Position numbers and translations under genes: made by a program. From assembly GCA_030674185.1 (NCBI GenBank), contig JAPXFY010000031.1:40502532-40515031 (forward strand): 12,500 nt of DNA, written 5' to 3'. The DNA comes from Monoplex corrugatus (lineage: Eukaryota > Mollusca > Gastropoda > Littorinimorpha > Ranellidae). Shown here in pieces: positions 541 to 5,151 of this stretch. How positions within the stretch are numbered: position 1 is the first letter of the stretch; each line of letters opens with the position of its first letter. A model generated the notes under the pieces. It had not been told where the DNA came from. It ran no database searches and was given only the letters and a program-made list of their open reading frames with translations.

Positions 541-1334
541 AAGGTGTTAATGTATTGCTGAATAAAATCAGTCTGTGACTTACAGCGCTATAGAAGGTGT
601 CTATATCAGGCAGTACAAAATCAGTCTGTGACTTACAACACCCTAGAAGGTGTTTATATAGGGCTGTATAAAATCAGTGCGTGACTTACAGCGCCATAGA
701 AGGTGTTTATATAGGGCTGTATAAAATCAGTGCGTGACTTACAACACCATAGAAGGTGTTTATATAGGGCTGCATAAAATCAGTGCATGACTTACAACAC
801 CATAGAAGGTGTTTATATAGGGCTGTATAAAATCAGTCTGTGACCTACAACACCACAGAAGGTGTTTATATAGGGCTGTATAAAATCAGTCTGTGACCTA
901 CAACACCACAGAAGGTGTTTATATAGGGCTGTATAAAATCAGTCTGTGACCTACAACACCATAGAAGGTGTTTATATAGGGCTGTATAAAATCAGTCTGT
1001 GACTTACAACACCATAGAAGGTGTTTATATAGGGCTGTATAAAATCAGTGCGTGACTTACAACACCATAGAAGGTGTTTATACAGGGCTGTATAAAATCA
1101 GTGCGTGACTTACAGCGCCATAGAAGGTGTTTATATAGAGGTGTATAAAATCAGTGCGTGACTTACAGCGCCATAGGTGTTTATATAGGGCTGTATAAAA
1201 TCAGTGCATGACTTACAGCTCCATAGAAGGTGTTTATATAGGGCTGTATAAAATCAGTGCATGACTTACAGCTCCATAGAAGGTGTTTATATAGGGCTGT
1301 ATAAAATCAGTGCATGACTTACAGCGCAATAGAA
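541..1334 (-). repeat. Array subfamily A (15 units, distal end)
   Basis: These units differ as a block from the rest. On the plus strand they read gggctgtataaaatcag, tgcgtgacttacagcgcc, atagaaggtgtttatata. On the sense strand the exon-like part is preceded by TTTTATACAG and reads CCC TAT ATA AAC ACC TTC TAT GGT GTT before GTAAGT: 27 nt, still in frame. The unit length is again 53 bp. The two leftmost units (541-650) are mosaics that carry both the A-type and B-type middle segments. Confidence 0.85.
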
Positions 1335-4300
1335 GGTGTTGATGTACTGCTTTACAAAATCACCCAGCGACTTACAATGCCATAGAAGGTGCTGATGTAC
1401 TGCTTTAAAATCCCCCAGCGACTTACAGTGTCATAGAACGTGTTCGTGTATTGCTTTACAAAATCACCCAGTGATTTACAATGCCGTAGAAGGTGTTCGT
1501 GTATTGCTTTACAAAATCACCCAGTGACTTACAGCGCCATAGAAGGTGTTCATGTACTGCTTTACAAAATCACCCAGCGACTTAAAATGCCATAGAAGGT
1601 GTTCATGTATTGCTTTACAAAACATACACCAAGTGACTTACATGCCACAGAAGGTGTTCGTGTACTGCTTTACAAATCACCCAGCGACTTACAGCGCCAT
1701 AGAAGGTGTTCGTGTATTGCTTTACAAAATCACCCAGTGACTTACAATGCCATAGGTGTTCGTGTATTGCTTTACAAAATCACCCAGCGACTTACAGCGC
1801 CACAGAAAGTGTTCATGTACTGCTTTACAAAATCACCCAATGACTTACAGCGCCACAGAAGGTGTTCATGTACTGCTTTACAAAATCACCCAATGACTTA
1901 CAGCGCCATAGAAGGTGTTCATGTACTGCTTTACAAAATCACCCAGTGACTTACAGTGCCATAGAAGGTGTTCATGTACTGCTTTACAAAATCACCAAGC
2001 GACTTACAATGCCATAGAAAGTGTTATGTACTGCTTTACAAAATCACCCAGCGACTTACAATGCCACAGGTGTTCATGTACTGCTTTACAAAATCACCCA
2101 GCGACTTATAGCGCCATAGGTGTTCATGTGCTGCTTTACAAAATCACCCAGTGACTTACAATGCCATAGAAAGTGTTCATGTACTGCTTTACAAAATCAC
2201 CCAGCGACTTACAATGCCACAGAAAGTGTTCGTGTACTGCTTTACAAAATCACCCAGCGACTTACAATGCCATAGAAGGTGTTCATGTACTGTTTTACAA
2301 AATCACCCAGCGACTTACAATGCCATAGAAAGTGTTCATGTACTGTTTTACAAAATCACCCAGCGACTTACAATGCCATAGAAAGTGTTCATGTATTGCT
2401 TTACAAAATCACCCAGCAACTTACAATGCCATAGAAGGTGTTCATGTACTGCTTTACAAAATCCCTCAGCGACTTACAGCGCCATAGGTGTTCATGTGCT
2501 GCTTTACAAAATCACCAAGCGACTTACAATGCCATAGAAGGTGTTCATGTACTGCTTTACAAAATCACCCAGCGACTTACAATGCCATAGAAAGTGTTCA
2601 TGTACTGTTTACAAAATCACCCAGCGACTTACAGCGCCATAGAAGGTGTTCATGTGCTGCTTTACAAAATCCCCCAGTGACTTACAATGCCATAGAAGGT
2701 GTTCATGTACTGCTTTACAAAATCACCCAGTGACTTACAATGCCATAGAAGGTGTTCATGTATTGCTTTACAAAATCCCCCAGCGACTTACAATGCCATA
2801 GAAGGTGTTCATGTACTGCTTTACAAAATCACCCAGCGACTTACAATGCCATAGGTGTTCATGTACTGCTTTACAAAATCACCCAGTGATTTACAGCGCC
2901 ACAGAAAGTGTTAGTGTATTGCTTTACAAAATCCCTCAGCGACTTACAGCGCCATAGGTGTTCATGTATTGCTTTACAAAATCACCAAGCGACTTACAAT
3001 GCCACAGAAGGTGTTCGTGTACTGCTTTACAAAATCACCCAGTGACTTACAGCGCCATAGAAGGTGTTCGTGCATTGCTTTACAAAATCACCCAGTGACT
3101 TACAGCGCCATAAAAGGTGTTCGTGTATTGCTTTACAAAATCACCCATCGACTTACAGTGCCACAGAAAGTGTTCATGTACTGTTTTACAAAATCACCCA
3201 GTGACTTACAGCGCCATAGAAGGTGTTCATGTACTGCTTTACAAAATCACCCAGTGACTTACAATGCCATAGAAGGTGTTCATGTACTGCTTTACAAAAT
3301 CACACAGCGACTTACAATGCCACAGAAATGTTAATGTATGCTTTACAAAATCACCCAGTGACTTACAATGCCAAAGGTGTTATGTATTGCTTTACAAAAT
3401 CACCCAGCGACTTACAATGCCACAGAAAGTGTTAATGTATTGCTTTATAAAATCACCCAGTGACTTACAATGCCATAGAAGGTGTTCATGTACTGCTTTA
3501 CAAAATCACCCAGCGACTTACAATGCCAAAGGTGTTAATGTATTGCTTTGCAAAATCACCCAGCGACTTACAGCGCCATAGAAGGTGTTCATGTACTGCT
3601 TTACAAAATCACCCAGTGACTTACAGCGCCATAGAAGGTGTTCATGTACTGCTTTACAAAATCACCAACGACTTACAATGCCATAGAAGGTGTTCGTGTA
3701 CTGCTTTACAAAATCACCCAGCGACTTACAATGCCATAGAAGGTATTCATGTACTGCTTTACAAAATCACCCAGTGACTTACAATGCCATAGAAGGTGTT
3801 CATGTACTGCTTTACAAAATCACCAAGCGACTTACAATGCCATAGAAGGTGTTCATGTACTGCTTTACAAAATCACCCAGTGACTTACAATGCCATAGAA
3901 GGTGTTCATGTACTGCTTTACAAAATCACCAAGCGACTTACAATGCCATAGAAAGTGTTCATGTACTGCTTTACAAAATCACCCAGCGACTTACAATGCC
4001 ACAGAAGGTGTTCATGTACTGCTTTACAAAATCCCCAGCGACTTACAGCGCCATAGAAGGTGTTCATGTGCTGCTTTACAAAATCACCCAGCGACTTACA
4101 TGCCACAGAAGGTGTTCATGTATTGCTTTACAAAATCACCCAGCGACTTAAAATGCCATAGAAGGTGTTCATGTGCTGCTTTACAAAATCACCCAGCAAC
4201 TTACAATGCCATAGAAGGTGTTCATGTGCTGCTTTACAAAATCCCCAGCGACTTACAATGCCATAGAAGGTGTTCATGTACTGCTTTACAAAATCACCCA

Positions 4301-5151
4301 GCGACTTACAATGCCATAGAAGGTGTTCATGTATTGCTTTACAAAATCACCCAGCGACTTACAATGCCATAGAAGGTGTTCATGTACTGCTTTACAAAAT
4401 CACCCAGCGACTTACAATGCCAAAGGTGTTCATGTACTGCTTTACAAAATCACCCAGTGACTTACAGCGCCACAGAAAGTGTTAATGTATTGCTTTACAA
4501 AATCCCCAGCGACTTACAGCGCCATAGAAGGTGTTGATGAACTGCTTTACAAAATCACCCAGTGACTTACAGCGCCACAGAAAGTGTTAATGTATTGCTT
4601 TACAAAATCACCCAGTGACTTACAGCGCCACAGAAAGTGTTAATGTATTGCTTTACAAAATCACCCAGTGACTTACAGCGCCACAGAAAGTGTTAATGTA
4701 TTGCTTTACAAAATCACCCAGCGACTTACAATGCCATAGAAGGTGTTGATGAATGCTTTACAAAATCACCCAGTGACTTACAATGCCATAGAAGGTGTTC
4801 ATGTACTGCTTTACAAAATCACCCAGCGACTTACAATGCCATAGAAGGTGTTAATGTATTGCTTTACAAAATCACCAAGCACAGCTGCATTTTCCCAGCC
4901 ATTCAGACACCCTTTAGTTGCGAGCCGGCGTCACCTGGGAGTTCTATTTTTAGCCAGGCAGGGTCGACCAAAGCCCATCAGTGTAGTGCGTCTTTGTGCT
5001 TCCGCGCTATTAATAGCCAGCAGAAAGTGGCCAACTAAAGTATCTCGGATTTGTGCGCCTTGCAAGTGACTTACAATGCCATAGAAGGTGTTCATGTACT
5101 GCTTTACAAAATCACCCAGCGACTTACAGCGCCATAGAAGGTGTTCATGTA
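1335..5151 (-). repeat. Array subfamily B (proximal, exon-identical units)
   Basis: About 69 units match the exon 4 boundary almost exactly, with recurring two-state variants: GGCGCT or GGCATT at the exon end, TAT or TGT, CAG or CAA before TAC, and GTCGCT or GTCACT in the intron part. Three consecutive, almost identical units with the TTAACAC variant lie at about 4571-4730. A two-unit haplotype at 2461-2530 recurs at 2931-3000. Both patterns point to recent multi-unit duplication and homogenisation. Confidence 0.85.
4880..5062. mobile_element. Unidentified 183-bp insertion in the array, candidate 4-bp TSD
   Basis: The 53-bp periodicity stops at 4879 and resumes at 5063. The interruption begins CACAGCTGCATTTTCCC, ends GATTTGTGCGCCTTG, and is flanked by CAAG on both sides (4876-4879 and 5063-5066). 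CAAG is part of a common unit variant (atcaccaagcgac), so a 4-bp target-site duplication fits but is short. It has internal similarity (tttttagccaggcag against ttaatagccagcag) and a palindromic GGTCGACC core. I do not recognise the family and see no coding potential or clear terminal inverted repeats. Confidence 0.6.

Follow-up and report, generated by a model that had tools for sequence, protein, structure and literature searches.

How does the splicing machinery find the end of an exon when that end, donor site included, is repeated dozens of times in the intron that follows? The question is raised by a stretch of 12,500 nucleotides from the gastropod Monoplex corrugatus (GenBank assembly GCA_030674185.1, contig JAPXFY010000031.1, positions 40,502,532 to 40,515,031; the whole stretch is called the window here), in which an NT5DC2/3-like gene lies on the minus strand. 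A minisatellite runs from the end of its exon 4 into intron 4, and the unit of that minisatellite is the exon-intron junction itself. In the usual account, splicing singles out a donor from decoys that vary in strength; in this gene a single intron contains 81 donors of mostly one computed strength, and with a mirror case on the acceptor side of the same gene, position would have to decide. I consider it likely that the array is a junction-derived minisatellite, formed probably by tandem duplication, and that it is a passenger silent to splicing, the acceptor of exon 4 being predicted to pair with the nearest donor, that of unit 1.

Tandem Repeats Finder (TRF) reports 82.7 copies of 53 bp between 540 and 4880, with a score of 5560. 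Wrap-around alignment, with a 183-bp insert excluded, counts 84 whole units, the first starting at 5151 and the last ending at 555, and a stub of 17 nt at 538-554. On the minus strand the unit reads TACATGAACACCTTCTATGGCATT (exon part) followed by GTAAGTCGCTGGGTGATTTTGTAAAGCAG (intron part). A first-pass annotation had described about 84 tandem copies of 53 bp, each joining the final 24 nt of exon 4 to the opening 29 nt of intron 4, with about 81 donor GTs, mostly GTAAGT, and both the numbers and the composition of the unit agree with the alignment. Of the 84 units, 81 retain the donor GT, the hexamers being GTAAGT (76), GTAGGT (3), GTAAAT (2), TTAAGT (2) and ATAAGT (1). The exon-like part is an ungapped 24 nt in 70 units, the intron half ends in CAG in 46, and 73 of the 84 aligned unit sequences are distinct. 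A genome search with a 221-bp array query (very common words skipped, one candidate place scored) listed 26 matches, and since all 26 fall at this one locus, the repetition is taken to be beyond chance. An introner, a dispersed element that makes introns, would need the unit at many loci and was rejected on the same result. A coding array was likewise rejected: long open stretches do occur on the plus strand, but a 53-bp unit that lacks stops and varies by indels would be expected to give them. The copies give no sign of coding constraint, because among the A-type units of Table 1 the exon half is more variable than the intron half (0.111 vs 0.061).

The annotation had drawn the array as a single run from 541 to 5151. 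The array is there, but it is not unbroken to 5151, since unit 2 is split by the 183-bp insert, which resembles a miniature inverted-repeat transposable element (MITE). The insert is flanked by 4-bp copies of CTTG (5063-5066 and 4876-4879), has relatives on many contigs by genome search, and belongs to a set of which several of seven aligned copies end in CACGGC/GCCGTG or near it. Nor are the copies of one kind, as the 15 distal units make up a separate subfamily, 27% from the other 69. Apart from this insert, a palindromic MITE-like element can be read by eye at 481-540 and at about 5380-5550 of the window, and a half copy of it seems to meet the array at its distal end, at about the centre of the element.

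Table 1. Features on the minus strand of the window, with positions in window coordinates.
Feature	Position	Strand	Basis
Splice-donor minisatellite, 84 whole 53-bp units	541..5151, plus 17-nt stub to 538	-	TRF and wrap-around alignment
Unit 1, the source (24 nt from the end of exon 4, 29 nt from the start of intron 4; donor GT 5126-5127)	5099..5151	-	
A-type units, n = 69, mean pairwise difference 8.3%	1347..5151	-	
B-type diverged units, n = 15; 10.3% internal difference, 26.9% from A	555..1346	-	
Dispersed MITE-like element, 183 bp, in intron half of unit 2	4880..5062	-	Ends read against relatives
Exon 4 of NT5DC2/3-like gene, 91 nt, GLKALDDEEVKTLFGGTHISLDYMNTFYGA	5128..5218	-	Homology and profile match
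Exon 3 (YPSEI...GTVYR)	8765..8895	-	
Exon 3 acceptor, two-copy duplication (8881-8906 real; 8942-8967 upstream copy)	8881..8967	-	26 nt, 88%, spacing 61
Exon 2 (FDYDYTLASY...), ends GTCAAG|GTGATA at 10014	10014..10196	-	Protein match reaches to 10196, which need not be the exon 5' end

Which came first, the exon or the array? The exon half of the unit encodes YMNTFYGA, the last eight codons of exon 4, and exon 4 is bordered by AG before 5218 and GTAAGT after 5128. Fourteen proteins, from 120 listed (1086 matches in all), were aligned. One of them lacks the region; of the 13 others, 10 contain MNTFYG, including proteins of snails, an octopus and a chiton (Liolophura), while the motif is missing from Babylonia P0004, Nucella P0005 and zebrafish P0081. 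In a paralogue on contig C21 the exon ends alike and runs into GTAAGT, and no array follows. Because the exon half is conserved in homologues and the junction of the paralogue is free of the array, the exon is the source of the array and not the reverse. The end of exon 4 had been placed at 5128, which is right by homology, and the first unit had been regarded as the source and, by prediction, the working junction, a view upheld by the conserved exon end and the array-free junction of the paralogue. The annotation had also called the junction live, and the word draws on homology, open frames and purifying selection, activity at the junction itself being a prediction from sequence.

Strength alone would not decide the choice of donor, since the copies mostly equal the real donor in computed pairing with the 5' end of U1: 73 of 83 copies are equal to it, 2 stronger and 8 weaker. 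The choice has consequences. TAA stands in frame 22-24 nt past the exon 4 junction, and therefore any downstream donor, if used, would add an in-frame stop. Exon 4 would measure 91 nt with donor 1, 144 nt with donor 2 and already 384 nt with donor 3, since the 183-bp insert sets unit 3 and all later units farther from the exon. Short exons are favoured under exon definition. A course of events can be proposed in which the first junction copies were born by slippage or unequal exchange at the junction of exon 4 and intron 4, and the array spread by unequal exchange. Exon definition would then select the first donor and leave the array invisible to splicing, and the insert in unit 2 would aid donor 1 by distancing donor 3 and those beyond it.

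The exon 4 array is not the only one of its kind in the gene. The gene was read over its sequence outside exons 5-10 and the acceptor that partners exon 4 (the readable part), and 4 of its 16 readable junctions, that of exon 4 included, are copied locally, as compared to none in the 13 exons of the paralogue. A second donor array of 26 x 37 bp follows the exon ending ...LQHLIEEMQ|GTGAGT, its unit being the exon end plus GTAAGTTATGGTA (L034 6581-7552, contig C31). GT occupies 25 of its 26 donor columns, the real donor included, most copies read CAG|GTAAGT or CAG|GTGAGT, and no copy is computed to pair with U1 more strongly than the real donor. On the acceptor side, about 37 copies of 24 bp precede the exon QGNLYQLR, with a unit of ...TTTCAG plus GGCAACCTGTA (L035 147-1052, contig C31); CAG or TAG closes 28 of 38 aligned units, the last of which is the predicted real acceptor. 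The fourth case is the two-copy duplication at the acceptor of exon 3, which spans 15 nt of the exon. A 73% copy of the end of the last coding exon, 388 nt downstream, does not concern a splice junction and was left out of the count.

Read-through past the LQHLIEEMQ donor gives GTG AGT TAA, the first unit upstream of QGNLYQLR reads GGC CAC CTA TAA, and use of the duplicate acceptor of exon 3 would shift the frame (61 nt). The rule of the shortest exon would fit these arrays too, since the first donor after LQHLIEEMQ and the last acceptor before QGNLYQLR are the ones needed. A rule of the shortest intron (intron definition) would choose the wrong copy in all three arrays. At the three arrays and at the exon 3 duplicate, the junction that homologues require is the one that gives the shortest exon; the pattern is as exon definition predicts and opposite to a choice of the shortest intron.

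Something similar may be seen in another snail. In the predicted protein P0005 of Nucella lapillus, DPSVRYGWRTGA is preceded, from residue 347 onward, by DPSVRYGCIQFSGCFVQ and a closely similar second copy, and DPSVRYG occurs three times at an exon start. An exact scan for 6-residue repeats finds such a near repeat in this one alone of the 120 listed homologues, and its probable origin is an acceptor duplication that the gene model has taken for coding sequence.

Are junctions then hot spots for such copies in general? The survey outside the gene comprised 71 exons: 30 of myosin (the best 30 of 73 matches), 20 of kinesin (the best 20 stop-free of 125 matches) and 21 others of the family PF05761, 5 of these from the C21 paralogue. 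Flanks were taken within 350 nt on each side for kinesin and within 1500 and 350 nt for the others. One clear junction duplication was found, in a myosin exon, where a unit of 155 bp made up of acceptor plus exon occurs three times in pieces 99-100% identical by BLAST (L069:1134-1609, contig C2). The exon ends come from matches to profile hidden Markov models with 40 nt of slack, so that 1 in 71 is a lower bound. Several other candidates were not counted. A 43-nt, 79% copy in L060 is of exon-interior sequence, and weak low-complexity matches in L017 and L049 (65-68% identity) fell under a stricter cut. Three arrays were set aside, one of 22 bp x 69 (L024:1-1485) and one of 25 bp x 61 (L061:61-1477), which stop 16-31 nt and 24 nt, respectively, before the matched exon sequence and do not enter the exon, and one of 53 bp x 18 in L063, a near-junction array that begins after the exon.

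Against this background, the NT5DC2/3-like gene is the exception regarding arrays at junctions. Its readable sequence contains five large arrays (TRF period at least 20, at least 15 copies), and three of the five straddle junctions. With the exon 4 array excluded, the probability that at least two of the other four would lie at junctions under uniform placement is about 0.001, and the comparison of 3 of 15 junctions in the gene with 1 of 142 edges outside it gives a Fisher p of 0.003, both being after-the-fact figures.

Several considerations weigh against the view that the array is a silent passenger born of its junction. The use of donor 1 is a prediction, and the acceptor that would pair with donor 1 lies outside the sequence read, in the region of exons 5-10. 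In degree of conservation the donor hexamer comes no higher than 10th of 53 in the A units and 19th in the B units, so that selection for the donor motif is not seen in the copies; this fits neutrality but lends function no positive support. When the first 29 nt of the intron are compared with the intron of the paralogue after GTAAGT, no significant similarity emerges (p 0.38 and 0.20), and for this reason the intron half is not independently shown to be ancestral. Finally, about 1 of 142 sampled exon edges outside the gene is duplicated, as compared to a local copy for 21 of 220 intronic blocks drawn at random (50 nt each, from 55 loci, four of them of the NT5DC2/3-like gene). It follows from these two figures that tandem repeats are common in these introns and that exon edges are generally no hot spots, and the arrays at the junctions of this gene may be plain bad luck in a repeat-rich region.

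The gene itself looks functional over its readable part, as judged by its sequence. Matches to PF05761 score 77.2 bits for exons 3 and 4 joined and 54.8 bits for exon 2, with a curated cut-off of 28.5, and the best named homologue among the matches listed is a Babylonia areolata protein (69%). Eight exons compared with the paralogue comprise 270 codons and no stop, with a ratio of nonsynonymous to synonymous differences (pN/pS) of 0.18, and AG and GT are present at the flanks shown. Nine exon matches to the named Babylonia protein are 62-100% identical, eight of them at least 78%, and the match of 62% overruns the exon end. These facts tell against the notion that this copy of the gene is dying and that the arrays are the decay of a pseudogene whose junctions go unguarded. 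That notion draws on the four duplicated junctions and their absence from the paralogue, but with open exons, flanking AG and GT, so low a pN/pS and such matches to Babylonia, it is very unlikely. Much the same probability attaches to the array, or its copy number, having been made by the assembler. One amphioxus array of a related kind did look aberrantly assembled in a draft genome, according to the accessible part of that account (PMC3087553). In the present case the great majority of aligned units are distinct and divide in order into A and B types, unit 2 is interrupted by a transposon-like element bordered by target-site copies, and the window contains no N, all of which make an artefact highly improbable; the copy number may nonetheless be off.

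Might the array instead do something? Some 80 donors binding U1 could delay splicing, block early intronic polyadenylation, or silence the gene through read-through products prone to nonsense-mediated decay. The 76 GTAAGT motifs, the near parity of the copies with the real donor, the in-frame TAA that each copy would add if used, and the two further junction arrays in the gene would all suit such a role. Other parts of the unit are better kept than the donor motif, however, the copies differ freely to the point that 15 have drifted by 27%, and the paralogue manages with no array, which together leave a function quite unlikely. A second possibility is that the units are a store of in-frame microexons of 24 nt (CAG|TACATG...ATT|GTAAGT, 8 codons), a few of which would be spliced in as YMNTFYGI repeats. 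The closing CAG of 46 units, the 81 donor GTs and the 70 ungapped exon-like parts would allow it, and new exons made from copies of junctions were proposed by the amphioxus authors, as far as the accessible text goes (PMC3087553). The 120 listed homologues contain no repeat at this place by the exact 6-residue scan, and no clear pyrimidine tract is read ahead of CAG in the sequence, a matter judged by reading and not scored. Moreover, the 29 nt between neighbouring copies would be too little for a metazoan intron. Microexons are thus extremely improbable, and I return to the array as a silent, junction-derived minisatellite.

Arrays of this sort have a name, mirages, and the first paper on them is said to have appeared in Nucleic Acids Res in 2002. 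The first-pass annotation was right about the pattern of a minisatellite derived from a functional boundary; it named no precedent, yet one is known in amphioxus (PMC3087553). The accessible portions of the sources are the basis of this and the following comparisons. In the amphioxus genes Adh3 and the globins BflGb6 and BflGb9, minisatellite-like tandem copies extend across an exon-intron boundary on the donor or the acceptor side, and regular splicing of the globins and Adh3 is reportedly undisturbed (PMC3087553); PGBD5 and TnC provide further mirages (PMC3902484). The likeness to the exon 4 array is close: the units hold exon and intron of one junction (24 + 29 nt in the 84 units here), the source unit is the gene's own junction, and the splice signal is kept in many of the copies, though not in every one (GT in 81 of 84 here). 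The differences are several. The present host is a mollusc and not a lancelet. The array has 84 units, as compared to 6 and 3 in BflGb6 and one duplicate in BflGb9, while PGBD5 has repeats of 60 and 108 bp, the latter called a triplication (PMC3902484), and units in Adh3 measure 10-72 bp. Three arrays and a two-copy duplication occur here in one gene, and regular splicing, reported there, is predicted here from frames and homologues. By its structure the exon 4 array belongs with the mirages, and is new, to judge from these partial sources, in its phylum, its copy number and its recurrence within a gene.

Other systems share less. The tandem dual-specific sites of human UBC also form a tandem array with a splice signal in each repeat, but those repeats are coding, delimited by AGGT and variably spliced, whereas here the copies are intronic and contain stops (PMC10809524, as far as accessible). 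A site of the UBC type was looked for at the border of the exon 4 units and rejected, since the units join as AG|TACATG, with no AGGT; the LQHLIEEMQ array does have CAG|GT at its unit border. Among paralogues in human segmental duplications, the expansion of a minisatellite at an exon-intron boundary likewise changes gene structure, with on average about 4 units of 30 bp, according to the part of the paper available (PMC2812944). There an intron is gained, whereas here an existing intron is lengthened and none is new. Among gastropods, the TSSK1-like gene of abalone has a polymorphic intronic minisatellite with a unit of 27 bp, and the accessible text mentions neither an exon-derived unit nor a splice junction (PMC6905558). 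The corresponding portions of two further papers describe only short repeats in Conus introns (PMC3862624) and, in an earthworm gene, intronic minisatellites with no mention of junction copies (PMC12783039). Among the papers listed, no mollusc case of a boundary-spanning array was recognised from titles and the openings of abstracts, mostly of papers outside subscription.

The case extends mirages beyond lancelets and indicates that one gene can grow several, and several in one gene point to a mechanism linked to the junction. What stands out most as new is the recurrence on donor and acceptor sides in one gene, together with copies of almost the same strength and the chance to test exon definition by RNA reads, the NT5DC2/3-like gene being a natural test of splice-site choice by exon as opposed to intron definition. 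A broader idea, possible though on the doubtful side, is that splice junctions are immortal seeds of minisatellites: the exonic copy could not be lost, arrays would grow again from it, and exon definition would hide them. If true, this would be a general route of intron growth in long-intron animals, from lancelets to snails, and each array would be a living gauge of the preference of the spliceosome for the exon-proximal site.

One observation concerns another part of the window. An open frame of 89 amino acids on the minus strand at 9480-9749, for which no Pfam match was obtained at E 0.01, contains the GIY-YIG-like string YLINCSKCFQLYIGETGRTL and is perhaps the remnant of a retroelement.

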